Shown piece after piece: positions 13-37,870 of a stretch of 40,000 nt of DNA. The stretch is from Chromera velia (Eukaryota; Sar; Chromeraceae): NCBI GenBank assembly GCA_018398765.1, contig JAHBMJ010000039.1, positions 5,799 through 45,798 of the forward strand, given 5' to 3'. A model generated the notes under the pieces. That model searched no databases. It was not told the origin of the DNA and saw only the letters and a program-made list of their open reading frames with translations. Both the position numbers and the translations under genes were made by a program. The first letter of the stretch is position 1; every line of letters begins with the position of its first letter.

Positions 13-3000
13 GTGGGTGTCTGCGTAGTCGTACAGGCACAGAGAATTGAAAGAGGCCCCAAAAACCCTGCAGATATGCATGCCAGAGAGAATGAATGAG
101 TAATGAAATCTCTCAAGCCGACTTTTATCCCTCCGAAATATTTTCAGAGACTGATCTCGAGAACTTAGCAACAAGGACCAAAAGAAATGCAAAAAGAGGG
201 TATGAAGATGAAGAGATCTTGGAAAAAAATGAGCCACAGATTTTCGATGAGGTCGCAGATATCCGCATTACTCCGGGCTTAAAAAATATCTTGTGGGTCC
301 GGGAAAGAAGACCAGTTGGCAAAGGAAGAAAGCAGTCAAGCGGAGAAGGGCGGCAAGCGCACCAAGAAATAAATGGTCCTGTTTTACTTAATTGAGTCTT
401 CTGCAGAAAGACAGACCTTTTGATCGTGTGTGCAACGCAAAAAGCGTTGAGTTCGTGCAGCGTCTCTGTGCCACCAAACGAGTGGACAGCCCGGAAGTTC
501 CGCATGTCCCAGAGCTTCAAACTGCCCGCAACATCTGCAGATGTATATGTAATGCATTTAAGACAGATACGCAACTCGGAAGTGGCAAAACAAGCACAAA
601 TAAGTGCGCAGCAGGGTGCAGGGGGCTTGCGATTGGAAGACGACGGCTTTTTTCTTGTGATTGTGCGCATCCTGCGGCCGGAACGGCTGGCATTCTAGTT
701 GCGGACGTGCCGGCAAAGTTCACGAACGAATCACATCAAGGCTTCCAGACAGGACGGAGCATAGCTACGGAACGCGGAGCTCACAGGCCTAGAATTTGAG
801 TGGTGTTCGGGGATCTCATACCAAGATGAAGCTTTGTTCCAAAAGATGCCTTAAGTTTATGAAATACTGTGCGTGCATGCATGCACACGTACGTACCTCC
901 CGTGATGATCTGTACCGTCCCAGGCACAGTGACAACACCCACCAGGGCGTGGGCGTGGCCCTTCAGCCTGCACTTGGGGGAGGTGAGAAGATGATGAATG
1001 CGAGGAATTAAGAGGCTGTATCGGAATTTAAGTATGACCCACCATCCTTGCCTTCCTGGGATCGCGTGAATGTGCCCCCAGACAAAGAAGGAAAATCGAA
1101 GGAGACGATTACGAAAGTGGCGCAAGATCATTTCATGGGAGAGGGAAGGACTCTCTCTTTAGTTAGACCACAAAACAAGAGATGCCTGAAGACTATGAGA
1201 GTGCAGAAAAGTCACGTTGGTATATGAGGCATCCCGACAGGTACGTGAACTCCGACAGTCACAAAAAATGTTCAATGTGTCTGAGACATTCCGATCTCGC
1301 AGGCTGCCCATGAGTCTATCTATGCACATGCATACAAAATGCTGGTGAGACTCCTCGGTGCCCACTGACTTGAAGATAGGGTCCCTCTGCACGTACGGAT
1401 TCCACGCGATTGCGTCCTGGTCCATCCCCGCAGACAGGAGACAGTTGAACTGACGGGAGTACGCGAGGGAGCCTACCGCCTTCTGGTGACCCTTCGCTCC
1501 TCCGAGCTCTCCAGCAAGTCTGCATGTGGCTGCGTCCCACAGCTGCACGACCCCTCCACGCTCTCCGGCATCGAGGGCGGATGCCAGGACTTCCATGTCT
1601 GCATGACAATGCATGCATAAATGAAAGTAATGCATGCATTCAGAATTCTGTATGAAAGTAAATGCAGGCATCGAGAGCCGATGCCAGGACTTCCATGTCT
1701 GCATCCATAAGTTCAAGTCCCTCCGGCATGTCATCATCGATCGATCGTGGATCATCACACAAGCAAGTGCACCGACAGTCGCAGAGTCCAATCATGCCCG
1801 ATTCCATGAGGATGCAGATACACGAGAAAAAATGGCGGCCTGCCCAAAGTCTGAGGCGCTCCTTTCCACTTCTCCTACTCTACAGGAGACTGCAGACTCT
1901 TATGATCTCAGGTTTCTCTCCCCCCCCCCCACCCCCCCTCTGACATGCACACACAAACACTCACACAGAGACATTCGCGCATATGTGATTGATTCATTCT
2001 CTACTCACCTGGAAGCAGCAGCAGAGCGTTTACTGATGGGGGATTGTTCTCTTGACTCTGAAGAAGTTCTTTCCTTTCAGTCAGCGTCAGCAAATCCCAG
2101 AGAGTCACGATGCCATTCGTCGCACCTCTGCAAGCGTCAAAAAAACGAGACAGATGAAAAATAGAATATGTGACCCTACCCAAAGAAGAAAAAAAGAGAA
2201 TGACGAGAAAAAGGAAAGCGAGGACAAGTCCCACTATCGAAAATACAAAATAAGCGAACCACTCAGTTCATTGTCAATCGATCACACTCCCTTTCGAAAC
2301 AACTCTCGCAGTCTGCCTTAAATTACTGACTGGCTGACTCACGTTGCCAGAAGTTCCCTTCCAGCCGCCCCCCCTTCTCCCATCCACTGTAAGCACATCT
2401 GAACGTCCTGGCATGCGATCCGTTGTCGGAGGGTCATCGTGTCGGCACTCCAGAGGCAAACGCTCATGTCGGCAGCAGAAGTCGCAACCTGCACACTCAC
2501 TCACAGAAACATATGCCACAAACAGACGCAATAAAACAAAATAAGGATCGACACTTGCCGCAGCTGGACAAAGGGAGAAGCCAGGGGCTGAAAACAGAGA
2601 GAGCGCCGACGACATTTATAGAATGCTGAGAACGCAAAGAAAAGTTCTCTCTCGAATTCACCTTTCTCGCATGTAAGCTTTTGTCCCACGACAAGACAAC
2701 CCTGAAGCCGCCCAGGCTTACATGTACACAAAAAACTCCTTCCAGACCTTCAGAGAATACAAGCGACTCTCGGACAAAGCAGAGAAGAGAGAAAGTCTTT
2801 TTCCTTCTTTTTTCTTCATCTTTTCCGTCTTTGTGCCCTCCAACCTCGCACCTCTCTGCGGGTGTTCAGATGCTGACAGTGTTTTCTCCCCTCACAAACA
2901 AGATCAATCAAACTCCTACAGCCGCTCTCCTACCTGTCCGTAGCTCCCCACGTGACAGGCCGTGATTGCCGAACCCCTGTGGCCCGAGACGTCCTTCTTG

Positions 3001-6000
3001 ATGGTGCACGTGTGGGGGTCATAGAGCTTGAACGTCTTTGCGCCAGAGTGAAACACCGCAACGCTGTCGAGAGCTTCCAAGAAGACGGCACTGCATTGGA
3101 CAAAAACGTCAGTGTATTCGTTTACTTTCATACAGAATTCTTTTTCTCTGAATGTATGAAAGTAAACGCAGGCACTGCATTGGACAGAAACGTCTGAGTG
3201 AGTGGAAATAGAAGGAGAAAGACAGAGAGAGGAAAGAGGGAAATGGGTGTGTGCATATGTGTTTGTGTTCATAAAAAGAAAACAAGCAACCCATGCATTT
3301 GCAGTCAGCCAGATTGCCCCACGAAACACAGGACGCTGCAGCAAGGAGGATCAGACCTACAGACGACTACCCCTCCAGTCTCACTCTTCACTCCCTTTCT
3401 CCTTCTCTCACTGTGTCTCTTAGTCACTGCATCTGCCGCTAAATGTCTTCTCAACAATTTCGCTCTGCTCTTCTGACAGGACCTTGATTGAAGAAACTGA
3501 ACGAGAAATTCTCGGCTGACTTGTCAATCGTGCTCTCGTGGTGAGTGAGGTCGTCGACCCTCGACTGTTCGTACTGCAAATGTCAAGGCAAAAGGGAGGA
3601 TTCATCATGAGTTTTGAATTAACTGTTGTGAAGGGAATCCGTTGATCTAGTCAAGCTGTTCCGCTGTCATCTGCCCACCCTCAACTGCCCAAATTCGAAA
3701 CCTGTATGCGAAAGGGAGACCTTGACTTTGTGAAGTGGATTGCGAACAATTATGAAAATCCGTTGGACAGAAGAATGCAAGAAAACTAAGATTATACAAA
3801 CCATTGAATGGGCACAGAAACTTAGGAGGAGAAGTCGAGGGAGAAAAACAAGATACCCTTGTTTTTATCGTCTTTCCAGCTGGCTTTGAGAGATGGTCAC
3901 AAAATATTGTGCTCACACGCCAAATCGACATCACATGCCAAATGACTGACCCGTTTCATTTTGTCCACCACATCATCTTGCCTGCACAGCCGGAGAGACG
4001 GAAAGAAAGAAAAGGGATTCCTTGTTGCTAATCTCTGTTCACTTTCGTTCATCTACCCTTTGGTGTGGTTGGCATATGCATACAGGGAGAAAGTCAAAGA
4101 ACGCCAATTGGAAAACAGACCACACAAGCAGAAAGAATTGAAGAAAGTCATTTTGGAGCGACACAAAGAGATATCCGAAGGAGGAAAAAGATTTCTGTGG
4201 CTTGAATTCACAGGACCAAAACGTTCAAACGAAAGTCAAACACAATCCACTCACTCACCTTCCTGCCATTCCGGCGTCAATCAGATAATCCGAGAACTCC
4301 TGCAAAACCCAGAGAGAGGACCAAACACACACACAGGTTGGGGTAGAAGACCTGTTGCCAAACGGGAGTCTTGAATGGACGGAGGAAAGCGGAAGATAAA
4401 ACAAACAGACACGAATGCAGACAGACAAAATATGTTTCCCCTGACTCTTTTCTACAGAGGGATAAAGAAACGAAACACACAACATTCAGCCTGAAAGGAA
4501 AGATAGGCATAGCATAATATTGCAACCATGCAAGTGAGTCAGGAGACGCACGCAGAGGGTTCGATTGAGTCCCCCCCTTTATATTTCACAGACTTTCTTA
4601 AATATCTTCCCTCTTCATGAAGCTCCTCAAAACCTGCGACAGAAGACTTCTTCTCTCTATTTCTGTCGTGTTGATGATCCCATCGAAAAGACTTTCCTCA
4701 TTTTGTCTATCGGTTGAAACAGACCAGCGACAACGAAGGAAACCGAAAAGCAAAAAAAGAGGAATGACCTCCCACCCAAGTCTCCCATCACAATCACAAT
4801 CTGCCCACTCGAACATTTCGACTGTGGCAGTTGCGACTTTGCCTGCACGAACACATTCAAACAGCCTTGAGAAGAAAAACCAGAAAACCAGAGTTCAAAA
4901 AAACGGTAACAAAAAAAACCTCCGGTCGTCAACGAAGGAAACTGGGTGTTCCGATCATCTCACATCCACATCGTGTTTTCCATCCCACCTCCAAGTCGCT
5001 GCTCTACATTCCAAACTTCATTTGCACTGAAAAAAAAAGAAAAACCTATTCAGCTCTGTCATTCACGCTCTCCCTCCACGCCACTCATAATTCACGGCCA
5101 ATTCCACATCAACTAGAGGAAGCTATTTGAGTCAGCACCAAAAAATCAAAATGAACGCACTGACCCAAGCCCTCTTCAGTCAGCCAATAGGACCCCGGGG
5201 GGATGTGGGGCCTCCCTTCTCTCCCTCCTCCAGCAGCAGATACCAAACCTTCAGAGATCCCTTTCCGTCCTCGAGAAGAGGCGTCAGGAATCACAGGTGA
5301 TCCAAGGGGGGATACCAATGGATCTCCTGTGGAAGGGTTCGGCACTGACAGGGCGCCTGCGGGTGAAGGCTTCCCCTTAACGTTCGTGTCAAAAGCAGCC
5401 AGAGCAACCACGCTGGTGGGTGCCTCGAGAGAAATCGGAGGAGGTGCTGGAGAGGGGGGGATTGATGGAGGATTCTCGTTGGCTGTGTCCATCTGTGTCA
5501 AGAAGGCCCCGGCATTGTCATTCAGAGGGGCCCCGGCACCCTCTCCATCGGGCCCGTCTCCCTCGAATCGTGGGCCCTTTGGGCCTCTCCCCCTCTCCCC
5601 CGTCTCCTCTTGGCCTTCTGCACCTTCGTCTTGGAGTGCAGCGAGTGCTGGTTTGGGGAAGGCCGGAAGGTCAGAGAAGATGTCCCTCTGGTGTTGTTTT
5701 TGCCTCTCGAGGGAATACTCTCGAAGTTGCTCCTGCAAGAAAGACCTCATGCAGTAGCATGGAGGGACGTCGGACGGAGTTGTGAAAAAAGCTACTTGCA
5801 TTGATGTACAAGGTATCCACAATCGCAAACAGACATACACTTATTCGATCGTCACGTGGAACCTCCCAACCATCCGCTGAAGTTCTCAGCCCACACTCCC
5901 CCCTTCCTCCTTTTCTCCTGCTCGGTTGCTTTTTTTCTCTGAGATCTTTCAATCATGCATCTTCGTCCATTCGAGAGAAGAAGAAGGAAGTACGTAAGTA

Positions 6001-6602
6001 AGTGAGGAAGGAGGGAAGGAAAGAGGGAAAGGGAGAGAGACAGAGGAACCAAAAAAGAAGTAAACAGAGAAAAAGAGGAAAAGAGAAGGAAAGCAAGAAA
6101 GAAGTGGAGAAAGGGGAAGGGGGGCGGGGGCAAGAGGCGTGCCTTGGAATGCCAGGAATACCAGCACAGCAATGAAGTAAAATACAAAAACAGGCATTAA
6201 CCCGACCTTATCAATTCCCAAGTCAAGACTCTCCAGCATGGCACGAACAAACGAAGGACACCCAAGTCGGCCCCCTCCCGCATTAAACGCATGTCTCAAA
6301 GATGCCATTGCAGAAGCGTCAACCAAGGGCACGATGTCCACCTCGGCCCTTGTCCGCTCTTTCCGTCTGTCCTCTTCCTCGGGAGACAGCTTTTGCTTCC
6401 CCCCTTTCGACAGTTCCTCCTCTAACTGGGCAGCAGAAGGCCCCCCGCCCCCCGTGGAACGACCGGGAGATCCCGAGGGGCCCAGGTTGGCTGCTCCTGT
6501 GGGGTCGTCTCCGTCTCCCTGCCTGTCCAGTCTTTCGCGGTCCGCGCCTGCACCACCCGCAGCCGCCTGGAGCTGTGCGGTTGTGGAGGGCCCTTGTGAA
6601 TC
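13..6602 (-). CDS. EF-hand plus WD40-repeat protein (partial, multi-exon)
   Basis: Exons read on the minus strand, with phases that join: 6207-6602, 5165-5732, 4769-4842, 4259-4299, possibly 3428-3573, 2934-3090, 2343-2488, 2009-2127, 1370-1598, 897-967, 417-534 and 13-67, then off the edge. The first two exons encode a Gly/Pro/Glu-rich low-complexity region. Exons 4769-4842 and 4259-4299 join to make a canonical EF-hand loop (DCDCDGRLGWEE) followed by FSDYLI. Later exons are WD40 blades: GIVTLWDLL, GGVVQLWDAATC, LKGHAHALVGVV, GSLKLWDMRNF. The order EF-hand then WD40 resembles the WDR49/WDR64/EFCAB8 group, usually scaffold or ciliary proteins; that assignment is inference. The phase between about 3428 and 3090 does not close, so one small exon is missing from my model. 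The 5' end is unresolved: the exon at 6602 starts in phase 0 after GCATGCAG, and more exons probably lie upstream to about 7.2-7.8 kb. Two exons (start 3090 and 1598) carry acceptor-duplicating inserts. Confidence 0.75.
1567..1704 (-). repeat. Palindromic insert between duplicated acceptor/exon starts, locus I
   Basis: A 38-bp stretch at 1667-1704 recurs at 1567-1604 with two mismatches, exactly 100 bp apart. Between them lies a 62-bp insert (1605-1666) which on the coding strand begins TGCATTTACTTTCATACAG and contains GAATTC and TGCATGCAT. Each 38-bp copy contains the 3' splice site ATGCAG|ACATGG and the first 32 or so exon bases. Phase fits either acceptor (1598 or 1698), but only the downstream copy (1598) reads on into the WD40 exon without the insert, so the upstream copy and the insert are probably intronic. 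Confidence 0.85.
3087..3194 (-). repeat. Palindromic insert between duplicated acceptor/exon starts, locus II
   Basis: A 24-bp direct repeat (3087-3110 and 3171-3194, one mismatch) flanks a 60-bp insert at 3111-3170. The insert has inverted ends: TTTACTTTCATAC on one side and GTATGAAAGTAAA on the other. On the coding strand each 24-bp copy spans the acceptor CAATGCAG plus the first four exon bases. The acceptor used is probably at 3090, giving the exon that reads AVFLEALDSVAVFHSG. Confidence 0.85.
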
Positions 6603-7897
6603 CTGCATGCATGCATGCATGCATACATGCAGGCACATTTGTGAAATGAGGTGCTTGATTCAAAGGGTGTGAACGGTCATGGTGAAGGTCAAAGTTGGTC
6701 TTCCAGAGATGCCCGTGGTCGTGCGTGCAGTTGTCGAAGGTCCATGTGAATCTTGCCCACGCGCGAAGAAGAAAGGAAGAGCGTCATCAGTCAAAAGGAA
6801 GAAAAGGGGGGTGCTGAACGTGCCTTAGCCCCATCCGCAATGAAGGAAGATCATGTCTGTCTCCAAACAAACGAAGGAGCGAGAAGAACAGTTCGCCCCA
6901 CAATATCAATCTGTCAATGCGTCTGTTTGGATATCAAGGTATCGGGCCGACGTCCTGCTTCCTCTTTGGCACCCTCGAGCCACCGTCTCGGCATCTCTTC
7001 TGCTGTGAAACACACAAGAGAAATTTTTTGTGTGACTTCTTCGTTTTGATTTGATTCTATAGAATACCCCTCCCTCAAATTACACGCACACCCGCACCCA
7101 CCCACCCTTTGTCTGGGACCTCTGTTCTCGAGAATCGCCGGACGCACAGAGGACTTCGTCGGCACCGCCACACCGGCACCCACCTGCAATTTGCGTAAAA
7201 AGCAGAAAAGTGATCAGCGAGCAGAAAGGTCCGCGCGCAACTGGGGAATTACAACAAGCACAGATCCACCGGAAAGGAGGGGCGACGAAGGATGGCAAGG
7301 ACGTGCCACTCATCGAGCCGTCGTGTAGACGGAGAGCAATGGAACCCAAACAGACGTGTGTCTGGTTATATCTGAGACAAACAGATAAACAGCCATTCGA
7401 AGAAAGGAAACCTGCCAGAGCTTCCGTGGTACCCAGCAGCAGTCGCACAGCAAGAAGAAAAGACAGCGACACGCATGAATCGAAATGCACAACATGCATG
7501 TGTTGCATGCATGCAGAGATCACATCTTCATGTGTCTTTGTGTGCCTGTACACCGACCGGAACTTGAAGATTGAGGCTTCCCTCTGCTTTCATCTTCTCA
7601 AAAGCACCTGGTCACCTGTTCCAGGAAGTTGTCCGCTTGTGTTTACTTGCGTCAGTGGTGTGTTTGCCTGAGGCTTTTATGTACACATTCGAAAAACTCT
7701 GAGATATGAATATGTACGTGAGCAACACCTGGACTGCAGAGCAAAAACATGAGAGGGGAATTCAATGACTTGCCTGACTCTGAAGAAGCACTTCTGATCC
7801 TGGGGGGCTCAAAAAGTCTGACAAGTCTGAAGGAAGATATTTGTCTGTCAGACAAACTAGCTTAGTAGTATATATATAACACAAGTCGGTCTGTCAT
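6603..7897. other. 5' part of the minus-strand gene, and divergent promoter
   Basis: This stretch probably holds 5' exons and introns of the EF-hand/WD40 gene. One candidate exon on the minus strand is about 7131-7183, preceded by TTGCAG and followed by GTCCC, but its frame cannot be fixed. A (GCAT)n run at 6605-6628 abuts the acceptor of the exon at 6602. Other TGCATGCA motifs lie at about 7494-7512. I see no further recognisable domain. Confidence 0.4.
7856..7897. promoter_or_regulatory. Compact TATA-like region upstream of the RING-RRM start
   Basis: A TAGTAGTATATATATAACA tract at about 7864-7882 lies 15-30 bases upstream of the ATG at 7898. If the minus-strand gene starts nearby (an ATG reading MSDRQISSF lies at 7855), the two genes share this region head to head. 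Whether it is a TATA box or part of a 5' UTR cannot be decided here. Confidence 0.35.
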
Positions 7898-10800
7898 ATG
7901 GCGTCGGATGAACGGGTGAATCAATTTAACGCATGCATGAATTTCCTAGCTGTAAGTACCCCACAAGCATCCCACAAGCAACTTGCCGAGCATGCAGTCG
8001 CCGAGCTCAAGCTGGGAGACGGCTCTTCAATGCATCACTTTCCGGTTTTTTGATCTTAAATTAATTTTCGGGAGATCCGACTTTTCTGCAAATTTCACAA
8101 CTCAAGATTTTCCAAGGCGCTTAAGGCTGATGGATTTCGTCAGTGACAACGGCAGAGGAGGGGAAGCAGTACGGCAGGAAGGTACCCCTGTACTCGTCTG
8201 CTCGGTTTGCGAGGTGTCTGATCGCGATGATTATTTGAAGACAGGACTTCATGTGTGAGATTATGCTCTCTTCTTTTCTCCCCAAGGATGATCTTGAGAT
8301 GCTCGCTTGACCTGCGTCGTCAAGCTGCTTCTATTTTGGAGACCAGTACTGCTGACATGACAACTTCGCTGTGACGCTTTTTCGATCAGAGAGAGCATCA
8401 AAGAAAGTAATGTCGAGACGTCCCTTCCAGTCTTCTTCCCTTCTGCACTGCTGGAGGGCATTCGAGGAGGCTCTGCTGTGCCCTTCCTGTCACAGCAGCT
8501 GCACGCATCTTCGTCTGTGCCCCTGCTCTCACATCATCTGTGCCATCTGCTTCTCCAGAGGGTTTGATGAAGTCCAAGGGACAGTCACCTGCGTCCTCTG
8601 TCTGAAGAGCTTCGAATCTGTCAGTCTCTGTTAATATATCGGTCGGTGAGACAGTCGGTCACTTTAGCGAGTGATAGCTGGTCACTTTAGTGAGTGACAG
8701 CTGGTCACTTTAGCGAGTGACAGTCGGTCACTTTAGCGAGTGACAGCTGGTCACTTTAGTGAGTGATAGTCGGTCACTTTAGCGAGTGAGTCAGTCAGCC
8801 AGCGACAGTGGGGGGATGTCTCAGACAGTGACCCAGTGGGTCACTTATTGAGTCATGTGCTCGTTCATTCACCTCTCCCGGCGTGTGTCTTCATTTAGCA
8901 CTCATGTTCTTTTCCGCTTCCTGTGAAGGTTTCCTCTGGGGATCCTTAAGCGCGTGCCGTGATATATGTGTGACCTGTGTGTTCAAGCAAGTACGTGCTT
9001 GTTTTGTCTGTGTGCAAGAGTCTGAATGGACTTTCGCTGAATTGGTTGCAGATGAAGGTGGTGAGAATCACCCCCCTGAACAACCTTGTGGATGTCCTCA
9101 ATCGGACTCCGGAGCTTCGTCGGAGAATCGAACAGAGTTTGGTCAGTCTGTCTTCAAATCTTTCTTCTTCGTCGTCTTTGTCTACTTAATATTAGTCTCT
9201 CTCAAACTGACAGAAGCTTAAAAAACCATCAGTCCATCGTTGGTGTGTTTCTCATTTTTTGTCTATCGGCCTGCGTGTTTTGAGCGGGCTTCTCTGACCC
9301 TGTTCGGTAAAACAACGGAGCACAAGCAAGCACACGTAATGGATGTTTTTTTTTTTACTTGCATGATCCTCCAGTCATTTGTGCTGATTGTGTCGTGCAG
9401 ACCCTTGCCGACCAGCAGCAAAGGCTAGAAGGGCAAAGGGCTCCCCACACAACCACCTATGTCCATCCTCCTCCTCCTCACGGCCCCCCACAGACAGATC
9501 CAGCAGAAACGGTCCAGAGAGATCAACCCCCCCCTTACTCAACGGAGGAAGCCGATTTCAGCCTTCTGTTCCCCTCTCAACACTCCAGAGAGCGGGTTGA
9601 CAGAACGGCCGCGATGTCGAGCGAATTTGTTGCCCTACCGGGGTGGGAAGTAGAAGAAATCAGGCGGCGGTCGTCTCTGAGCCAGCTGCCCAGGACAGAG
9701 ACGGCGTCTGCCTCTTCTGCTGTTCCGCAGAACAGTCACAGGAGTCAGTATCTTCCTCCTCAGTCGGAAATCCCAAACACCAATTTTGAACAGTCAGGCA
9801 CCAGCCAGGAGGCCCCGTTGGGTGTCACTCTGCCACCCGGTTTGGGTTTGGGTTTGCCCACCCTTGAACATCAAAATTTAGATCAACAAAATCTGAGTTC
9901 TTCTTCCCATGTGCCCCAGAGAAATCAGGCCCCTCCCCAATACGGCCCTCGAAAAGTTCTCCGAAAACGTGCAGCTGCACCCGGTGTGGGACCTCAACCT
10001 TTCCCCCACCCTCCGAATTCTCATTCCTTCAGCGGGCCCTTGCAATATCGTCCCGTCCCTATAGCCCCCCTTCAATCTGGGTACGGGAACGATTCTGCCC
10101 CCTCTTCTTCGCGGGAAGGCCTCCCAAGTCGAAGTAACCGTACAGCCACTCCTGTACAAGAACGGAAAGACGGAGAACTACAGCAACGGCGGCAGTTTGT
10201 CCCTCCTCCTCGGCCGTTGTTTCCGCCGCCCCCGAATTCTTTTCTCGGGGACGCACACCCTCGGCCCTCTGCTGCTGCTGCTGTTGTTGCTGCTGCGCCT
10301 GCCACTGGCTTTTCGGCCTCTGGGCGTTCTGCAGCAACGCAACTTTCTCATCCTCCCGGTCTTTGGGGGCAGGGGCAAGGGGGTAGGAGCGGGATCAGAA
10401 CCGACGACAGTGCCCCGACAGCTTCGGTCGCAGCAGGGGTAGGGGCACAGGAAGGGATAGGGGAGGCGGCCGCACCGCCTTCTTCTTCTTTGTATGTGAT
10501 GGAGACAGTGAAAGGACGGGGGAAAAGAGGGAAGAGGAGCCGGAAAGACGAAATGATCGTCGGGACCTCTCATCAGGGGACACGGACGGAGACGGAGAGA
10601 CACGGAGGGCATGCGGGAGGAGGAGTGAAGCAGCTGTACGATCCTGTCGTGGGGCCTCCTGGGTCGGTCAGTCACGGAGAGAGTGAGGGAGAAAGGGGGG
10701 TGGGTCCGTTTCGTTCGGCCATTCGACTCACGCATGTATTGGTCTTCTGTGTTGATGATGATGATGTGTCCGTGCGTGCGTGCGTGTGTGTGAGAGAGGG

Positions 10801-12495: not shown

Positions 12496-12547
12496 GATTG
12501 TCGGACCTGTTTGGATTGCGAATATTTTTCCTTTGCTAGTTTTCTGT

Positions 12548-12936: not shown

Positions 12937-13802
12937 GGTAACACGAAGAAAGGGAAGTCTTCAATGCCTTGTGGCCATGGTTCTGAAATCCATAGAAATT
13001 TCACCACTCCAGAAATATCATCAGGCATGCAGGCTGGCGCTTGTTGCGCACATCTACGTTCGTTCGGGCCAGTCTGCACGCTATGTGGGCGCGCGATGTT
13101 TTGACTGACTCTGGGGGTTCACAGGGCCTGGGGAAAGGTCGGGGGCGAAAGGAATGCAACCGACATCGCCTTACTGCATTTCACGGTATCTTTATTTTCC
13201 ATATCAAAAAGAGACAATGAGTCATTGCCGTCTCTGTCTCTCTCAGTCTGTCTCTTTCTGTGTCTCTGTCTGCGTATCTGGGTTTTCTTTTCTGTTTACT
13301 GGCACATTCTCATTCACTTTGGCCTTTTCTGTACCCGCGTCAATCACCACCATCCACACACACATACACCCAATCGTATCGTGTACCCCCTGCCCGCCTG
13401 TGTCGACAATTGGGCGTCAACATCGGAGTCTGCATGAGGCTCTGCTGACAATTGGGCGTCAACATCGGAGTCTGCATGAGGCTCTGCTGACAATTGGGCG
13501 TCAACATCGGAGTCTGCATGAGGAGACGGATGAAAGGATGGATGGGGGGGGTTGGATGGATGGATGGATGGATAGCCCTGTAAATGGGCTGGGTGGTAGG
13601 AACTGTGTGGGAGAAGAGAAATTAATGTGGGGAGTTTCTGATGAATCGTGAACATCTGCGTGTACGTGCTGATTTCTTTCAGGGGTGCTTGCACGTGCAG
13701 GTGCACGTCTGTGTGAAATGTACAAGACAAGAAGCCGATCCGTTAGAGCTCAAAAAACCCGAGAGCGAGGACAGATTGGAATGGAAGGAAGGAAGGAAGT
13801 AG
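12937..13802 (+). CDS. Candidate last exons of the RING-RRM gene
   Basis: Two exon candidates. One runs from about 12937 (after TTGGTCAG) to 13084 (before GTGGGC) and reads CLVAMVLKSIEISPLQKYHQ then VAHIYVRSGQSARY, which looks like helical protein. The other starts at 13683 after GATTTCTTTCAG; in phase 0 it ends at TAG 13800-13802, and in the next frame it stays open to about 13863. No domain is recognised. The link to the exon at 12353 would need a donor such as GTCCCT near 12470. Treat it as a hypothesis; it could also be a separate small gene. Confidence 0.35.
13405..13524. repeat. 42-bp tandem repeat, three copies
   Basis: Copies start at 13405, 13447 and 13489 with GACAATTGGGCGTCAACATC and are essentially identical; the third diverges after CATGAGG. 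An uninterrupted plus-strand frame reads TIGRQHRSLHEALL per unit, but there is no other sign of coding. It lies between candidate exons of the RING-RRM gene. Confidence 0.9.
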
Positions 13803-13883
13803 GGGCGTCCGGTTCACTGCCTGTGTACTTTCTTGTTCACAGAAATGATTGGATGCATGCGTGACTGTGTGGAGGAAAGGCAG

Positions 13884-13958
13884 TTGGGGGGTGGCATAGA
13901 TTAGTGCGGTTGCCTCTCATGTTGGGGGGGTGGCATAGATTAGTGCGATTGCCTTTCA
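13884..13958. repeat. Duplicated 36-37-bp unit with a tRNA A-box-like core
   Basis: Two copies, 13884-13919 and 13922-13958, share GGGTGGCATAGATTAGTGCG followed by RTTGCCTYTCA. The TGGCATAGATTAG part resembles a Pol III A box, and the unit resembles the sequence near 39790. It may be a SINE head fragment. Confidence 0.6.
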
Positions 13959-14434
13959 GGCTGGGAGGGGAGGGGAGGTGAGGGGCTTGTACGGGCTGGG
14001 GACAGAGAGGCAGCTCATTCATACGAGTGTTTTTTTCTTCTTGGTGGTAAATGGCTTCCCTGACTTCCTGTGTGTAAAACTGTGTGGGAATGAAACTTCG
14101 TCCTTCAGTAATAATAGAACAGAAAGGGAAAAGAGGGGCAAAACGAAAGCAACTAACTCATGCAAGCAGAGAGACCTGATCGGAAGGACAGACAGGAACC
14201 GGCAACGACACGGGTCCGGCATGAGAAGAAACAAGAAAGAAAAGAAAAAAAGGAAGGAAGGAAGGAAGCTAAGAAGGAAGGAAACGAGGGAGACTCCGAT
14301 TGTACAAAAGTGAACTTTGAATTTATTTGAAGGTATTATGCTAAGTTTCATGATAATCTCTGGGATAATCTTTCTTAGAAAATATAAAAAAAAATATAAG
14401 TGTTATACTATTTAAGAAACAATGCCCAAAGAGG
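13959..14434. other. Intergenic stretch, G-rich then A-rich
   Basis: Contains GGGGAGG runs near 13970, a purine-rich AAG/GGAA tract at about 14225-14285 and an AT-rich end. I see no gene. Confidence 0.5.
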
Positions 14435-14442
14435 GGTGTAAC

Positions 14443-14606: not shown

Positions 14607-14614
14607 GGTGTAAC

Positions 14615-25521: not shown

Positions 25522-27585
25522 ATGCTCTTTCCGGGCTTTCTCCTCCTCTCGGTGAGTTTCTTAGCCAGTTTCTCTTGCGCAGCTCTGTGTCCTGGCTTCA
25601 AATAACACTCCGTACCCATGTTTGCAGGCCGCTTTGTGGAGCGCTTCAGAGGCCTTTTTGGTCTCGCTGGTGCCGTCTCCGTTTCGCCGTCCGGTGTTCA
25701 CTCCAAGTGCTCGGCTGTTTGCTGGACTGTTGGACTGCGATAAACTCGAAACGCCTCGTGGGACAGAGAAAGAGGAGCAGAAAGAGATGGCAGTCCCGAG
25801 ACGGCAACCGCCACGATGGAAATCTCGAAAGTCTTCGGATCCCAGAGGAGACGCCGCACGGTCTTCATCAGGTCGTCGTGCCAACGGAGACGTCATACAG
25901 TCGTGGCCCCCGAGTCCTCCGAGACGATTTGAAGGGGCACGGGTTGGGGGGGGACAGCGTCGGGAAAGTGGGAAGGGACAAGGTTGGGGGGGTGAGAGAG
26001 ACCAAGACGTCGGACGGGGTCATGAAAGAAGGGAGAGAGACGGAAGAGGTGGGTGGCAAAGGGAGGGGGGTGGTGAGAGACGGGAACGCTTTCACAGGCA
26101 CGGGGACAGTGAGAGAAACGGACGATTACATCGGGGAGGGGACAAAGACGGGCAGAGAGGCTGGCAGAGGGGCCGAGGAGATAGAGATGGAAGGGACAGA
26201 GACGGGCAGGGAGGCTGGCAGAGGGGCCGAGGAGATGGAGATGGAAGGGACAGAGACGGGCAGGGAGGCTGGCAGAGGGGCCGAGGAGATAGACATGGAA
26301 GGGACAGAGACGGGCAGGGAAGCTGGCAGAGGGGCCGAGGAGATAGAGAGGGAGGGGACAGAGACGGGCGGGGGGGGTGGCAGAGGGGCCGAGGAGATAG
26401 AGAGGGAGGAGACAGAGACGGGCGGGGGGGGTGGCAGAGGGGCCGAGGAGATAGAGAGGGGGGAGACAGAGACGGGCGGGGAGGTTGGCAGAGGGAAAGA
26501 GGAGACAGAGAGGAAAGACCGCGCTGGCAAGAAGGAAGGGGAGAGGCAAACAGATTCCGCCAGCGGAAGACACGAGATGGAGACGGACACTGGGAGAAAT
26601 TTGGTGACTCCAGTGAGTCCAGAGGTGGAAGAGAAAGAAGTTCTTTTGGAGAAAGCAGAGAAGATTTTGGAGATGATGTGAAGGATCCGGGTGGGGACGT
26701 TGATCTGGAGAAGGGGGGGGCAGCGGCTCCTGATGTTGTCTATGAGGGTCCGACTGAGGGGGAGTTGGAAGGACTCAGGGCGTGCTTGGGCCTGACTGAC
26801 CTTCAAGCATGGCAAATGTCGTCTTTTTCTGATATGATCGCTGAGTGGAATAAGAAGGTCAATCTGATCAGCAGAAAGAACATTGACAAGCTTTGGGAGA
26901 ACCATATTCTGCCTTCTGCGGCTCTTGCCGGCCTATTGCTTGAGAAGGCTGGAGAAGGGAGAGGAGATGACGACGAGACGGAAAGTGAAATTCCAACATG
27001 CGTTTCAGAATGCCTAGATGGTGCTGAATTCATTGACGTCGGCACTGGTGGGGGGTTTCCTGGTATCCCGCTGGCTATCTGTTTTCCGCGTGCGCGGTTT
27101 GTGTTAGTCGACTCTGTAGGGAAGAAGATTGACGTGGTGAAAGACGTAGTCAACCGACTGGGTCTCGAGAATGTTGAGACAGTGCAGACTCGAGCAGAGG
27201 GACTTGAAGGGAAATTTGACTTCGTAGTCGGAAGGTCAGTAAAAATCTTTTTTGCTGTTCGTTCGTCTGCCTGTCTGTCTTGTGTGGAAGCAGGCGTCAT
27301 GCTGTGGCGAGACACATCATTGATCGGGGGAGGGAAATGGTGTCGTGAGTTGCTTCTTTACGTTTCGGGGAAAACTCCTAGGTTGTTCGAGTGCATGACA
27401 GTTTCGTTCGTCTTGTCTGTCTTTGTTGTTTCTTTCGTTGCCTCCTTTCGTTCCTCCTCCCTCCCTTCTTCGTTCCTTCCTTCTTGTTTCTATTCAAGTT
27501 TTTTTTCTTCCTCACTTCCTCCCTTTCTTCCTTCCGTCCTTCCTTCCTCCCTTCTTGCCTTTCTTTCTTTCTTTCTTTCTTTCTT

Positions 27586-27620
<35 letters not shown>

Positions 27621-27733
27621 TTCTCTCTCTCACACACACACGCGCACTCTTGTACGTGAAAAGAAGAAGACCTGGAAGAATAAAGAAGCCTGCAGTCTGT
27701 CTGTCTGTTTGTCAGTTTGTCTGTTTGTCTCTT

Positions 27734-27765
<32 letters not shown>

Positions 27766-27957
27766 GGGAGGTGGAGAGGCAAGGGGCACTTAACTCTCAC
27801 CTTTCGGGCCCCCTGCTCACGCTGTTTGATTGTTGGTGCTGTTCTTTTGTCTTTGTTCTTTCTTTCTTTTTGTCTGTTGTGTTCACGAAGAAACGGAGGG
27901 AGAAGAGGAAGAAACATATAGTCTGTCTGTCTGTCCGTCTGTCTGTCTGTCTGTCTC

Positions 27958-27998
<41 letters not shown>

Positions 27999-28974: not shown

Positions 28975-30767
28975 ATCGATCGTCATTTTATGAACTCTTA
29001 CAAAAATTCAACAAGGGAGCTATAAGCATGCATTCTTAGTATCAAGACTCAGTTCTCCTAAGAATCTACTTCATGACCGTGACGGTTTACGAGATTGATT
29101 GATTCATTGATTGATTGATTGATTCATTGATTCATTGATTAATTGATTGATTGATTAGTTCCGTACAATGTGTCTTTCCACTATATCGATCTGTCGCTGA
29201 TCAAATTTCTTTAAAATTATAGGATTAGGACCAGGATTGATGTTTGTATGAATCATGTTTTGGCCGCGGAACTTTCGCCTGTCTTTCAGGTTTCTGCGCG
29301 GTCGACTTACATAATTCCTAGCATAATTCCTAGTATAATTCTTCCTAGTAAGAATTAAGCTAAAATTGTTCTGGCATTGATGAACTCTAGCCAGACCAAG
29401 AATATAACTTGAAGCTTAGTTTGAAGCCAATTAGTCCTAATGATACTAGCAATGACCTAGGCAATGACGGCAGAATCTAAGGCGTAACTTTGAATTGATG
29501 ATTCTCTATAGATAATTTTTTGAACTTTCTAAATTGAGTCGTTTAATTGACTAGCTGACTACTCTATTTTTTTTTTTAATCTTTTTTTAATTTTTTGGTA
29601 ACTATATAATAGTTAGAATAATATTAAATAATATATCAGATAGCCTGTACCTAGGTCTGCACTAGAGCGTACATCTAGGCCTATGTGAGATAGGATTTAT
29701 ATCATATGGATCAAAGACCCAGGATTGAGAGTAAGTCCCCGCAGCCCACTGCGAGGTGTGACTTAAAACGTAAAATCTGCTTGAAAAGATGTTGTTTTTC
29801 TTATCAGATTGCTTTATAATAGCAATGTGAACCTCATCATCTTTAAATCTGTTTTGACTTTTCAACTTTCAAGTCTAAAACTTTGGTGCGCGTATCCACC
29901 TTAGAAGTTCTTAGGTACTGGCAGTGGTCCGCGACGGTCTGTGGCCCCAGATGCGTGTATGCCTCTTGCCGCCAAGATTGTTGACCCTACTATGAGGTCA
30001 GACGTGCATCTCTGTACGTAATTGAAGTCACCGGAATGCCCATGTGTGGGTGTTGTAGGGAGACGAGAAGAACGATGGCGGGATGGGACCCCAAGTGCGT
30101 CCCTGTGCCCACATGCCGTTGTAGCTCGCTGCGTTGTGAAGGGGAACCTGGCGGCCCGCCTCCTCGAATTCATTGGAGATGCCCATGCGTTCGGAGTATA
30201 CTGCATGCACAGATACAGTGAGAGTGTGCAAGAGGAAGGAGAAAGAGAAAGCACCGTGGTGTCAAGCTGCCCCTTGGGTTTGTCAAGAGACTGTCGTGTT
30301 CTTGCTCATGAGCGTGCACAACCACAGCAAAACAAACGCCTTTGTTGACTCGCACTCAAATAAGCAAAGCAAAGGAGAATTGCAAAAATGACGCAGCATG
30401 AAATCGTGCATCAGTTTGAAATTGTCAAATTGAAGGTGACAACATGATTCAAGATCAATCAAATGACGACTGCATCTGCTTTTTCCTTGAAATGGTGGAT
30501 CCACAATGCATTTATGGATGGATGGAGAAAAAAAAAAGTACAGGAAGATGCTTGGAGACAGATTGTTTGTATGTTCTCTATTCAGACAACTTCCTGAAGA
30601 CTCGAACACATACGTTGGCCACATCACCCTTTGCTTTCTGACTTCTGTGGCCGCACTCGCTCTCTTGCTCATCTTTGGCAGACAACTACAGAGCAGTAGT
30701 GACTCTTTCTTTCTTCATTCTTCCTGCGATGGTGACTTATTTCAAAATACTAATTTGTACTCGTCCT

Positions 30768-30815
<48 letters not shown>

Positions 30816-30939
30816 ACTGTCTGTCTGTCTGTCTGTTTGTCTCTCTGTCTGTCTGACCTTTGGTTCTCTGTACGTAGTCCTTGATCTGTTGCTTGTCTGC
30901 AAGCGTTTGGGTGTGTGTGGGATGAAGAAGGGGGTAAAT
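28975..30939. other. Gap between rsmG and the EF-hand gene
   Basis: 28980-29890 is AT-rich, with ATTGATTG/ATTCATTG repeats at 29094-29156, repeats of ATAATTCCTAG at 29310-29350 and a poly-T stretch near 29565. Both neighbouring genes converge on this gap. 29890-30700 is mixed and holds a minus frame ending GATDRRGPLPVPKNF preceded by an acceptor-like TACGTACAG, possibly a degraded exon. A (TGTC)n run lies at about 30769-30857. No gene can be supported. Confidence 0.45.
30769..30857. repeat. (TGTC)n microsatellite
   Basis: TGTC units with occasional TGTT or TGAC, downstream of the EF-hand gene. Confidence 0.95.
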
Positions 30940-32577
30940 TTACGGAGGGCCCTGTGCTCGAATATCCTTGTACGAAGAAAGAGAATGAATAATGAAGGCA
31001 GGAGGAAAATGGCAAGAGCGGAAAGAAGGAGGCAAGACAAGACACGATTGATCGAGAAGGATGCATCCATCAGGCGTGGACGGGACGATAGACCACACGA
31101 ACTCCATGTCTGTACGTAATCAGTGATCTGCCTTCGGACCGGGTTTTCTTTCTTTTATCATTTTCCTTTTAGAACTGACCGATGTGGTTCTTGCAGTGCG
31201 GACACTCGAAGGGCTCGTTCCCTGTCGGCCATAACTGGGCAGCGGCGGCGCTGTAGGAGAGAGGGAGGGAGGGAGGCAGAGGAAGAGAGAACCAGACAAT
31301 CGCATCAATGAAGCAAATGTTTGTTCTCTTTCTCTTTTTTCGCTTTCTTTTTTCCTCAGTTTCTTACATTTCCACAGTGAGGGGATTGCGTGAAATTCGA
31401 ATGCGATCTTCATCCCGGCGAAAGGGAATTGCTGTTTCAGGCACTGAATGACTGGCTGGCTGGTCTAGCTTGCTTATCTACACACTCACTCACTCATCAA
31501 CCGTCTCACTTAGTCGCTTACTTCTGGACTGGCCTGCTGGCTGACTGACTTGTATCCCTTCTGTGCGGTATCTAGGGCTTCCTTCTTCTTCTTTTCGTTC
31601 TCTGGGACGGAGGCCTTGCGGGGAGGTGCACGCTTCATCCCGGGGGGGGGGCCGCTGCCTCCCGCTCCTGCGCCGCCTGTCTGGGACGCTCTTCGCACCT
31701 TCGCTCTATCCTGCAGGACAAACCAGTTTTGTGCATTGAATGTTTTCTTCTGTCATGCCTTTGATGGAGCCTACAGCAGAATTGAAGTGCACATGTCGTC
31801 ACGGACTAATGGGGTGCCAGCGAACGTCACGAAGGTATTCTTCTGACAGGCCCTTCGACTGGTCTTGCAGGGAGAGAAAAAGAATCTGTCCTTCACGAGC
31901 AGAAAAGACGAAAATCAACATCTGTTCATACACAAGGACACTCGCCCGCTGATGCACTCCCACAGTGAGTGCCCTTAGTGTTCTGTCCCTCCCTCCGACC
32001 TCGTCGATCCTCTGTTTGGAGTGTTTGTAGAATTCGTTGAACAGCTCTTTGAACTCCTGCCAATCGACCTTCCCTGAATTGTCCGAATCCAATTCATCGA
32101 ACACCGCTTGGACGAACTCATCAGATAAAGGGGTGTCGTAATCTTTCTGCATGAACATAAAGTCATGCAGAGAGTTCATGTAAAGATGCACATGCAGAAA
32201 GGACAAGAGCCCACCGGATGAACCCTCGCGGGAACATGACACGAGGAAGAGTGAATGGAGGAGGAAGTTTAGGGGGGGGCATCCCCGAAAGGAACAAACA
32301 AACCTACAATGGAGGCCGATGCATGCATGCAGAATGCAACGTGGACCCGTCTACGTTGATTCAAGAAATTTCACGGACAGTCAAGTCTGTCCATTTGACT
32401 ACAATGCACCCTGCCCCCATCCTCTTCCCCTCGCTACGAACGAACGTTCAGCTCATTGAGAAGAAGTTCGCACTCGTCCAGGTCCAGAGTGCCCGTCTTG
32501 TCCCTGTCATACTTGTTCCACAACTTTCTCAGCTCGTCGTCAGACAGAGCGGCAGCAGTTGACTCTCCATTTCCCAT
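30940..32577 (-). CDS. EF-hand protein with a myristoylation-type N-terminus and a CPHC motif
   Basis: Exons on the minus strand: 32446-32577, 32000-32146, 31550-31710, 31180-31250, 30940-31109; phases 0, 0, 2, 1 close. About 226 residues. The start MGNGES fits the N-myristoylation pattern (Gly2, Ser6). Two EF-hands: DRDKTGTLDLDE in exon 1 and DSDNSGKVDWQE in exon 2, both with complete calcium ligands. Exon 3 is a Pro/Gly/Lys-rich linker. Exon 4 contains FECPHCKNHIG, half of a zinc-binding site with no clear partner cysteines, so the structure is uncertain. The last exon is less secure and could be read differently. It is probably a membrane-associated calcium sensor. It shares its upstream region with the GAD gene. 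Confidence 0.7.
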
Positions 32578-33389
32578 CTATCTTGTTGTTTCAAAGGCTT
32601 CTTACAAATTTGAAGAGGATGGAGGCTGAAGCTATAGGCTGGTCAAGAACTGGTGCAGACGAACGATGCAACAGCATGCAAGACGCCAATCGTTTTGGAG
32701 GATGGAGAACTGATCTTGCCGCGCCTGTTTCCGAGCTCAGTGTCTTGGCTGTGAGGCGATCGCTGGCAATTGAAAAGCAGGACTCAGAACTGAAAAAAAG
32801 AAAAGGTTCTCTGTACGCAGCATCCATGTCAAATCATGCAAGGCATCAAAGAAAACACCTCTTATATTTGCCTCGATCGGGATGCATATGCAGTACGTTC
32901 AATGTCTTCCGTACGTATCGGTAGGCCAATTCAGAAGCGACGGTGAAGCTGTACAGCTATATCGGGGACCGGCCAACACTTCGCGCGGCCGAGCGCGCAG
33001 CCATGCGCGGCCTGGGTAATAATGCATGGAGACGCGGCCATGCATGCAAAGACGGAAGGAGACGGGGGAAAACGCGAAGGAATGATTATATAGTCACCGT
33101 ATCCCTTCGTTCTGTTTCAAGACATCTTCAAGCTCCAGCCGCGGCAAGCATCTGCCAGAGAAAAGTGTCCACCTCTCTTCTCCTGTTTCCTCAAAGCACT
33201 GCGATCAACCTGATCCTGCAGAGACGGGCGCTTGAATTTGAGGCCGGACGGAGCCTTTGAGTTGAAGGCCTTGGAAAGACTTTTCCAGAGGAGCTCCAGC
33301 TTGCCTGTGATTCTGCTTTGCTTGTTCTGCACGTTTCTATTTAATCTTCCGACTGCAGCCCGCCCTCATTGAATCTCAGTCCTCTCAAA
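32578..33389. promoter_or_regulatory. Divergent promoter between the EF-hand and GAD genes
   Basis: The 812 bases between two outward-facing start codons. Contains TGCATG motifs at about 33023-33028 and a TGCATGC-type motif at 33042-33048, and a GC-rich stretch at 32980-33020. TGCATGC is a known ApiAP2 binding motif in apicomplexans. Function here is inferred from position only. Confidence 0.45.
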
Positions 33390-36300
33390 ATGGCGACAGA
33401 GAACGAAGTACAGCGTCAGGAGATTGAGAGGTTGAAGAGACAGATATCCGAAATGCAGCACCACACCACCACGATGAGAGAAGACTCTTACTTCTATGCG
33501 AGCCAGGTTGCGAGGAAGCCTCCAGTAGATCGAAAGGACCCCCGGTTCCCTTCGTGTGGCCTCCCCGGGAGATTCGTGAAGCAGCTAATCGTCAACACCC
33601 ACCTCCTTGACTCGAACGAGTACCTCAACACCAGCTCCTACGTCAACGTCGTGTTCGAACCAGAAGAATCTGAAATTGCCAAACTAGGGCTGTCTATCAA
33701 CATTGCCGATCAGACAGTGTATCCCTGGACGTTCCGTCTCCACGACGATGTGGTCAACATGATTGCCGACCTCTGGCACTGCCCCCGTCTCCCTGCAACG
33801 ATTGCTGCAGGAGTCTTTGCGGGTGCAGGCACAGTAGGATCCACAGAGGCCTGTCTCCTCGCCGGCCTGGCTCTGAAGTTCAGGTGGCGCACGTGGTACG
33901 CGCAGCAGAAGGGGCTCAGTGAAGCTGAGGTGCGTCACGCCTGTTCAAATGAAATATAGCACAGGTCGAGCTGAGCTCCGATTCGGGTTGCGCCGGCGGT
34001 ATGTGAGGAAAAAGGAATGGCCTCAGTGGGATTGAAGTTGATGATTTGCTTCCCGTGGGAGCTGTGTTTTGGGTACTCCGTCTGCACGCACCTCCATCCA
34101 CAATGCACTCGAAAGTTCCTGCGGGCTGCCTCTCCCGACTCCTTTCTGTTTACACCCCTACCCCCCCGGAATTCTTTCCACAGGTGCTTGTATCCGCCCA
34201 TGTTTCCATTACGGATCTTCTGGAAACCCATCCGTGCGTGCATTTCGCCTGCTTGATGATTCCTCTTCTCATGTCTTCTCTTCGCTCCCGCCCTCTAACT
34301 TGCCTCTCCGTTCTCTCTCTGAAAAGTTTCCCTTGGGTCTCCAAACTCCCCCCCCCCTCCATTCCCCAAACAACCTGATGCACACACATGAAGTTGTCCC
34401 TCCCTCCCTCCCTCCCTCCCTCCTTTTATCTCTGCAGGTCCGCAGAGAGTACCCAAACATGATCATCTCATCCATGTACCAGGCCTGCTGGGAGAAACTC
34501 TTCAGGTACGTACCTCAGGGGGGAGGGGGAATCGGTGATCATTTTTTAATTTTTTCGGTTTCCAGTCTGCCCCCATGTGTTTGTTTTTGGGACTCTTTGT
34601 GTTTTTCGCCCTGCCACTTTTCAGGCCATCGATCGATGAGCATCTCGATCGAGAGCGATTCCTGAAAGGTGCCGAGAGTGACGTGTGCAGTCCACAGACG
34701 CATTACCCGCCGGGTAGAGAGACGCGCGCACGCAACAGATGAATAGACAATCACGGAATCATGTAGTACAGATATGCGACACTATTCCCGTTTTCCTGTC
34801 TGCCATGAAGACCGACCCCTCCCTCCCCCGCGCCACGCATACAGATACCTTGACATCGAGCCCCGACTGGTGCACCCCCGCTCGAACGAGATGGCCATCA
34901 CAGCCGCCGACGTGGAGCCTTTCATAGACGACCACACGATTGGGGTCGTGTGCATCCTTGGAAACCACTACAGCGGTCACTACGATCCTGTGAAGGAGGT
35001 CGACGCTCTTCTCCAAAAAGTGAACGAGAAGAAAAACCTGCAGGTGGGTACGTGGGAGGGAGGGCGGGGTGGAAGGAAAGCGGTGGGCGTGAGAAGCTGG
35101 ACAAACCTCGGGGGGTCCTTTCATTCATTCATTCATTCAGGGTCTGCAGGACACAAGCGTTTGGATGAATGCTTCAGCATTGGATTTCGAAGGCACAAAA
35201 ACGAATGGAATGTTGGTTTTTGGATGGATAACGTGTCTGTCTCTTTTTCACTTTCAAGGTGTCCATATGAGAGAGAATCCACGTGACTCTTCCCTTTGTC
35301 CCTTCCCCTCCTTTGGTGACTTCCTTCCTCTTTGTCCCTCGATCAAGCAAGCAGGTAGGCATCCATGTAGACGCAGCCAGTGGAGGGTTCATCGCCCCCT
35401 TCCAGGAGGACGTGGAGGAGTGGGACTTCCGGCTCCCCAACGTGCTCTCCATCTCTACATCGGGTCTGTCGGTGTGAGTGAAGCCTTTGTGCTGAACTGG
35501 TTGCACGTGTACACATGCGTGCACACACACCCACCCCGATTCTACTTACATGTAGCTGTCGCTCTCGGTCTGTATGCATATGGAAGTGTCTCTCCCTGTA
35601 CGTGGGTCTGCTTCTGTGCCGGAGTGGTTGTTGAAATGAGGTCCCCCGATTCGACGCAAAACTGGAGGGGGGATTTGTGGATGTCATTCGTCTTCACGGA
35701 TTACAGCAAGAACCATTCCTGTCTGTTTGAAATGATTCACGACGTTTTTGTTGTTTGTCCATGCAGGACACAAGTTCGGCGAATCCTGTTGCGGGACTGG
35801 TTGGGTTGTGTGGAGACAGAAGGAGGACCTCTCGGAGCACGTGTCCTGCTCTGTGACGTATTTGGGGGGACAGGGAGACTCGTATACGCTGAACTTCTCC
35901 AGACCCGCATCGGGCATCATGGTTAGTTCCGTGGATTCATACCTTTATTTTGTTTTTCCTCTTCGCTTCCAAGCTCCCTCACGTCTGTGACTTTGCATGT
36001 TCTTAAATGAATGACTGCCCTCGAGGTGTTTTTTGCCTTGCAGGTTCTAGCTGGCTCATGCCTGTAATGCAAATGACTCTCTGCACCGTTTACATCTCCC
36101 CCGTAGCCAGCAGAAACTCACTGAAGCTGATTGTTTGGCCGTCTGCCTTTGTGTGCACCCGTCCATCCATAGAAGATGTTCCCCTCCTCTTTTTGTTTCT
36201 TCTCTCTCTTGCTTTGCTGCAGGTCCAGTACTACAAGATCCTGCGCCTCGGTAAAGAGGGGTACAAGGCGAAGGTATGTTCGTCCTCTCAGTCCATCGTT

Positions 36301-37870
36301 TGGTCTTTCTTTTCTTCCCTTCCTCCCTCCCTGCTGGCCTGCACACATATCTCTCTGCACCTGTGTGGTTGCCGGCCTGCTGTTCGCCTTTCTTCCCGCT
36401 CATCTGCCTGCCTTCATGCCCACTCAGGCCGGACTTTGTTTCTATCACTCGTCAACTCTCCTATCCGTGCCCTTTACATTGGATCTCAACTGCACATTAA
36501 ATTGTGTGTGCCTCTTTTGACCTCGCAAGAAAGACTCACGATGGCAAGTTTTTCGCGGTTCACTCTTTCTCCCTCTCCTCTTTTCCTTTCTTCAAATGTA
36601 TCTCAATGCCTGCAACAATAACTCTATACTTCTTCTTTCCCATTGGTCTCTTGCTTGTTTCAGGTGAGGAACCAACACCTTGTGGCAAAGCAGATCAGAG
36701 ACGGGTTGAAGCGGATGAAGTGCGGGGACGCCCCCAGATTCCGGATCCTCGATGCTGGGGACTTCAACTGCCTCCCTGTCGTGACTGCGATGCTCAACCC
36801 CGACCTCAAACTCCCATACGACGACATCGACCTCCAACACACCATCGGTCAGCCAGTCAGGACGATTTGGGTGGGGTTTTTTTGTGCGGAAGGAAAAGCT
36901 CTCTCCGCACTTGTATCCTGTTGGAAAACTTTCGAGTGTGTGACTCTGCATGTGCATCCACGAACATGCCTATGATATCCTTTATAGTCCTGTACGCCTA
37001 GCGAAGAGCAGCCCTTCATTTCTTTGCTCAGTATTCCCTTGTGCAGTCATCCGCATTCGGAAACAGGTTTTTTGACCCGTCACACATGGGCAGGTAGTTC
37101 GAAAGCTGCAGAATGAAAACAGACCATTCCGGTTGGTCTGCTGTTCTGAAAAAAAGTTGCGAATGCGTCAAGAGTGAATGAATTTCTCCGGTTGATCTGA
37201 AAAGGCAGCGTCTCTGGGAACGAAATGCACTTTTAAGGAGAGGCTCAGTTACCTGCTTCTGTTGCTTTTTCTGTCTGTGAACGAACAATTGACTGCAGGG
37301 GACGACGACCAGTGGTACGTGTCTGGATACAGAATGCAGTTCATGCATTTTCTTCTGTATGAAAGAATTCTGTATGAAAGAAAATGCCTGCAGGAGACGA
37401 CCAGTGGTACGTGTCTGGATACAGAATGCAGTTCATGCATTTTCTTTCTGAAAAAGAATTCTGTATGAAAGACAATGACTGCAGGAGACGACCAGTGGTA
37501 CGTGTCTGGATACAGAATGCAGTTCAACCACCCGCACACAGAGGAACTATGCGCGCTGTTCAAGGATATGATTGGTAGGTCTGTGCGCCTGTACTTCTGC
37601 CTCTCTGACTGTGTGTGTGCGTCTTCCGGCCTCCTTCCAAGTTGTTGGACGGACTTTTCTGTTCGATCTTCGACTGATTGATCGAGTTATCTTCAGATTG
37701 GATCTCCGATTGGGCGTCCCTAATCTGAGAAGAAGAAGAAGAAGAAAACGTGCAGTCTGTCTGCCTGGCTATCAGCCTGTACCCGTATCCACCCTCCTTG
37801 ACCTTGACGTCACCCGATGTCCTTCGGTGTTCTTTTTCTTCTTTGAGAGCTGGCTTTTCAATTGAGCCGC

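Follow-up and report, generated by a model that had tools for sequence, protein, structure and literature searches.

What are the short inserts that lie at intron/exon borders of Chromera velia, and why do they sit between direct repeats carrying a second copy of the splice site? The question arises from a 40,000-nucleotide stretch of the C. velia genome, called here the window, in which an initial annotation had reported four inserts at three borders in two genes. All four were found where it had placed them.

Inserts and duplicated acceptors in the window

Sites A and B belong to a WD40-repeat gene (897..6572, minus strand; modelled exon span, some exons of A0A0G4F186 being missed or mis-ended), the model of which is 94% identical to the C. 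velia protein A0A0G4F186 over 94% of the model, with some exon parts missed. Insert A (62 bp; 1605..1666, minus strand) lies in the intron upstream of an exon of this gene, between 38-bp repeats that are 95% identical. The repeat adjoining the exon body (1567..1604, minus strand) contains the acceptor ATGCAG, with the first exon base at 1598, the one chosen by the C. velia gene model; the repeat within the lengthened intron (1667..1704, minus strand) also has ATGCAG, with the first exon-like base at 1698. Insert B (60 bp; 3111..3170, minus strand) carries two complementary arms, CGTTTACTTTCATACA and TGTATGAAAGTAAACG. Its repeats are 24 bp long and 96% identical, one adjoining the exon body (3087..3110, minus strand), with the acceptor used and the first exon base at 3090, and the other lying within the intron (3171..3194, minus strand). 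Site C is found in a glutamate decarboxylase (GAD) gene (33390..38211, plus strand), modelled with nine exons, whose product is 100% identical to A0A0G4F0K1 of C. velia CCMP2878 over the modelled 564 aa. Two inserts on the plus strand, C1 (44 bp; 37344..37387) and C2 (43 bp; 37436..37478), separate three plus-strand copies of the acceptor and exon start. Copies 1 (37293..37343) and 2 (37388..37435) are now intronic, copy 1 being set apart from the other two by one substitution and a 3-bp indel; copy 3 (37479..37526) is joined to the exon body and provides the acceptor used, with the first exon base at 37485. At the three sites, about 390-640 bp separate the acceptor used from the donor upstream. 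Exact GTATGAAAG is confined to the four inserts within the window, which agrees with an earlier by-eye search that had found the core nowhere else in it. Other tandem repeats were also noted in the window, namely eight in-register copies of a 162-nt reference with 54-bp spacing (18 codons), 63-94% alike (26027-26566); 23-bp units of type GGTCACTTTAGCGAGTGACAGC with alternating variants (8627-8810); and, close together, a 42-bp unit present three times and a 39-bp unit present twice (13398-13523 and 13886-13963).

The inserts had been proposed to leave the mRNA intact. Indeed, as judged from gene models, the insert and the extra exon copy are absent from the database proteins at all three borders. 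At site C, splicing to copy 1 would stay in frame but meet a stop codon in insert C2, and splicing to copy 2 would cause a frameshift. The GAD protein P0071, also found in the mmetsp and eukprot listings, carries an 11-residue stretch encoded via the third copy, and the six homologues examined share the 6-residue spacing given by copy 3, where copy 1 would give 7. The WD40 database protein P0191 reads across A and B with splicing to the acceptors next to the exon body; its gene model has no mmetsp source and hence constitutes weaker splicing evidence than the GAD protein, gene models being the evidence throughout except for this mmetsp listing. Concerning the splice sites themselves, TGCAG ends 10 of 11 acceptors in the WD40 model and 5 of 8 in GAD, and the GAD donors match GTNNGT in 7/8 introns.

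A genome-wide insert family between long direct repeats

The assembly containing the window (Chromera velia CCMP2878, 177.8 Mb, 4,040 contigs) was searched as a whole. The 16-base core GAATTCTGTATGAAAG occurs in 1,441 places at no more than one mismatch, compared with 3 for the reversed pattern, and CTTTCATACAGAAT occurs exactly in 924 places versus 0 for the control; the suggestion of a repeated family is borne out by these counts. Two further patterns, CATACAGAATTCTTTTTCAGGG (116 places at no more than one mismatch) and ATGAAAGTAAATGCA (334 places), each gave 0 for the control. The first 100 core places fall into about 72 clusters, from which we estimate that the genome may contain on the order of a thousand loci. 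A viral source of the insert was also sought, and the viral contigs gave zero exact matches to CTTTCATACAGAATTCTTTTT.

For analysis of the flanks, a first sample of 78 clusters was composed of core places taken in contig order, three places from a 19-base pattern, the window sites and further arm motifs nearby, 13 overlapping duplicate loci having been removed before repeat scoring. A held-out sample comprised 11 sites from the CTTTCATACAGAAT list, chosen as new. Local alignment of left and right flanks revealed a direct repeat with a score of at least 30 at 73 of the 78 clusters but at only 13 of 176 random positions, and at all 11 held-out sites (scores 46-116). The initial annotation had asked whether copies elsewhere in the genome lie between direct repeats, and had named copies found equally in intergenic DNA without such repeats as a refuting case; with respect to the repeats, the sampled clusters do not match that case. 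With a threshold of 36, repeats were retained at 70 sites (10/176 in the control) and measured 42 bp on average (sd 10.5, range 20-68, n=70), in keeping with the long and variable duplications described in the window. Repeats scoring below 30 (5/78) were excluded before junction calling and those below 36 (8/78) before length statistics. In all, 84 repeat-bearing sites were available, found via one 16-base core, one 14-base pattern and the 19-base pattern. The repeat copies diverge by up to 21%. A target motif at the cut sites was considered and rejected, as none of the bases is markedly favoured there in the sample.

At 58 of the 70 sites with a repeat score of at least 36, the insert is shorter than 125 bp, with a median of 61.5 bp and a range of 24-113 bp. 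The arms are TGCATTTACTTTCATACAGAATTC-like; both 9-base arm motifs are exact in 22 of 60 inserts, and in the rest the second arm is imperfect or missing. Folding with DNA energy parameters gave hairpins with z < -2 relative to dinucleotide shuffles in 42 of the 60 single inserts. Covariation at the arm tips is weak (137/192 matches; shuffled mean 126, maximum 139), and inspection by eye did not find a common 3' tail, either poly(A) or simple repeat, among the 60 inserts. Some inserts of 24-33 bp (L063, L031, L037) have one arm and are still flanked by repeats of 30-49 bp. In two others, L061 and L051, a second block, ATATCTTTTAAACAA, is present in nearly exact form beside the usual arms and may be the remnant of a longer parent element.

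At some sites, repeat and insert are organized in tandem arrays, L034 carrying as many as seven copies of the repeat. At least 7 arrays have three or more repeat copies, a count which misses diverged copies, more arrays being visible. At G000:C135:68097-68623, nine arm motifs are spaced by exactly 64 bp, and the unit forms an extended tandem array. One of the six insert units of L034 differs in the hairpin interior, the repeat copies being identical; template switching within the palindrome could yield such a pattern.

Predicted splice junctions within the repeats

To locate junctions at the sampled sites, we used an ab initio caller which looks for a splice motif in the repeat with coding sequence on the exon side and non-coding sequence on the intron side, its codon model being derived from the two window genes. 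It recovers 62% of known junctions, these belonging to the training genes themselves, gives 5% false calls inside known introns, and scores the presence of a junction call, not its correct position. When either copy was allowed, a junction was called in 36 of 73 repeats compared with 273 of 2,190 windows located 20-350 bp away (Fisher p 9e-14, with two tries per site versus one); controls farther off gave 161 calls in 1,320 windows. Taken one copy at a time, 30/73 left and 35/73 right copies were called. After removal of the three window sites, the left and right copies gave 27/70 and 32/70; over 200 control replicates the average was 9.3 and the highest value 18. The control windows come from a shared set of loci, sampled many times, and hence are not independent. 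With either copy allowed, the corresponding figure is 33/70; controls given two independent windows averaged 16.8 and reached at most 25.

The held-out sites behave in the same way, with 7/11 called for the left copy, 8/11 for the right and 9/11 for either. Reading by eye also gave 9/11 spanning repeats, in a set that differs by the addition of L084 and the omission of L089; at L086 and L088 the called junction differs from that read by eye, and caller and eye fully agree at six held-out sites. Once the sensitivity of 62% and the false-call rate of 5% are taken into account, roughly 63-75% of the repeats would truly span a junction, leaving a quarter to a third of them without explanation by a spanned junction.

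The 36 calls comprise 17 donors and 19 acceptors. The initial annotation had described duplications that always span an acceptor; the spanning of splice sites exceeds that of controls, but its restriction to acceptors does not extend beyond the window. Nor is the orientation uniformly that of the transcript, as had been claimed, since by-hand comparison assigned 12 sense and 5 antisense among the 17 one-arm inserts for which a gene strand had been called. In called repeats, the junction is 5-29 bp from the intron-side edge of the repeat, and a wider scan peaks at 6-29 bp above a low background. All acceptor calls have at least 5 intron bases within the repeat; for donors, the caller itself demands the whole motif. 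At four donor-type sites (L014, L062, L078 and L046) the repeat ends exactly after GTNNGT, the shortest stretch holding a whole donor, shorter cases being uncallable by a caller that requires this hexamer. Decay of the spare splice site was examined as a proof of the copy used and proved uninformative, the motif being kept in both copies at 29 of the 36 called sites, in the exon-side copy only at 4 and in the intron-side copy only at 3.

Several exon sides could be identified by the proteins they encode. At L062, the exon encodes part of the succinate dehydrogenase flavoprotein subunit up to NWKSQ and is followed by GTCGGT inside the repeat (PDB match, E 1.9e-39), the alignment to the PDB protein continuing to the exon end. 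Pfam assigned L017 to EGF and L084 to cyclin, with a weak EF-hand match under the curated cut-off for L090, a weak match only for L087 and none for L067, L091, L092 and L078. The gene of L017 contains three sister EGF exons with the same acceptor phase, a single acceptor and no insert. No exact empty paralogue of L017 was found; five other partial matches are 73-77% identical, three of them in the same locus and unduplicated. Among all 84 sites, neither flank is coding at 30, one flank at 48 and both at 6. Since none of the uncalled sites among these 84 has both flanks coding on one strand, insertions into exon interiors seem rare, and no newly made intron was observed.

Proposed origin of the inserts and of intron growth

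MITEs and foldback elements resemble the C. velia inserts in being short, non-coding, armed with inverted repeats and present in high copy number. If an ordinary MITE were spread evenly and its exon hits removed by selection, the association with junctions would be mere survivorship. The inverted arms and hairpin folding suit this explanation, as does the presence of at least 5 intron bases in the repeat at every acceptor call, which survival would demand. However, with modelled window introns of 215-865 bp, even insertion followed by loss of exon hits is expected to leave only about one sixth of tolerated genic hits at a junction, compared with the estimated 63-75%, and therefore an additional bias towards exons or their edges has to be assumed; even insertion would also leave mostly intron-interior and intergenic copies. 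In addition, the duplication length of MITEs is set per family, whereas that of the C. velia inserts is not fixed (sd 10.5 bp) and some inserts have one arm. The 20-68 bp duplications are also unlike the short ones cited for MITE-type elements, 10-15 bp according to Farhat et al. 2021 (PMC7789003), and we consider an evenly spread MITE quite unlikely. Introners of Micromonas, Aureococcus and dinoflagellates, as surveyed by Gozashti et al. 2022 (PMC9860276), share more features with the C. velia inserts: many similar genic copies in the genome of an aquatic protist, inverted arms in some families, splice sites from the duplicated target and a mostly intact mRNA. An introner would turn exon sequence into a new intron, and the repeats of C. 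velia do carry splice motifs, in the way that introners recruit sites from duplications (PMC9860276). Nevertheless, the characterised families in that survey make new introns and have duplications of 3-9 bp, short target duplications being also expected of TIR transposons, instead of a mean of 42 bp. At the three window sites, with the donor far upstream, the intron is not the insert and does not end at or near the element ends; the inserts lengthen an existing intron, so that the distinction from introners drawn by the initial annotation holds. With no uncalled site coding on both flanks of one strand, this explanation is very improbable. The elements of Amoebophrya (Farhat et al. 2021, PMC7789003) are also found in an alveolate, with hairpin-forming inverted repeats and direct repeats over exon/intron boundaries, but these direct repeats measure 3-5 nt, and the intron is formed by the element itself, which was defined among non-canonical introns. 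By design, the introner survey left out most secondary insertions into introns that were already present (PMC9860276), and its procedure would likely pass over the C. velia inserts. In the titles and abstract openings of the literature listed on Chromera, introners, MITEs and splice boundaries, no description of this insert family appeared.

Variable duplication length is also a property of target-primed insertion by LINEs and SINEs, which produces truncated copies. The variable length is found in C. velia, but a common poly(A) or simple-repeat tail is not; inverted arms are present, and some inserts are one-armed. The inserts lack at least one tested feature of each of three groups, namely introners, fixed-duplication MITEs and LINE/SINE elements. 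Patch-mediated break repair with filler DNA generates long, variable tandem duplications with material between the copies, the filler not being known to belong to one recurrent family. The inserts could then be repair products, in which staggered or paired single-strand breaks are filled to give a tandem duplication and free hairpin DNA, not self-promoting, is captured as filler. The variable duplication length and the lack of a marked target motif would fit, and the one-arm inserts with their long repeats, unexpected from a two-ended transposase, argue against an enzyme requiring two ends and keep hairpin capture alive. On the other hand, what fills the C. velia sites is a single sequence family, with 1,441 core places, and not varied local or genomic sequence, though the sites showing this recurrent core were sampled by that very core. 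On balance, a pure repair origin seems improbable to us, though less so than an evenly spread MITE or an introner. An artefact of assembly at repeats can be given hardly any credence: arrays are hard to assemble, and the published C. velia assembly is described as built with velvet from short reads (PMC4501334), but the repeat copies are diverged, and in the database proteins, one of which is also listed under a transcriptome, the inserts are handled as intron sequence.

We regard it as probable that the inserts constitute a family of short, hairpin-like elements, flanked by 20-68 bp repeats that lie over predicted donors or acceptors far more often than controls do, and characterised by long duplications, a preference for exon edges and the lengthening of introns. 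They are likely mobile and non-autonomous. Since the duplication is long, variable and without a marked motif, two nicks about 42 bp apart followed by fill-in appear plausible. A putative enzyme would nick opposite strands at this distance, independently of any motif, either at the margin of exonic DNA or close to it. A copy of the element in hairpin form would then be joined in, and filling of the gap would produce the long repeats. Selection would purge any insertion that interrupts an exon but duplicates no complete splice site. Where the duplication contains a complete acceptor, often TGCAG, or a donor, mostly GTNNGT, splicing could use the copy beside the exon body, and the insert with the spare exon piece would become intron, leaving the protein unchanged. 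Later, slippage or unequal exchange between repeats might multiply the unit into tandem arrays.

A bolder version of this hairpin-element reading, which we put forward only tentatively and consider rather doubtful, is that the mobile DNA is directed to exon edges themselves, for instance by branched structures in which the gene is paired with spliced RNA, or with a copy of that RNA, up to each exon border. Such an element would cut about 20 bp to each side and place a hairpin there, so that introns would expand from their edges at no protein cost.

Should the inserts be mobile hairpin elements of the kind regarded here as probable, they would represent a second route, besides the making of new introns, by which a mobile element can persist cheaply in genes, namely by duplicating a splice site, and could account for part of the intron length of C. 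velia. The duplicated sites would also provide a natural test bed for the choice of the splicing machinery between two near-identical sites about 100 bp apart. Furthermore, they would point to an enzyme or a chromatin cue by which exon edges are distinguished at the DNA level.
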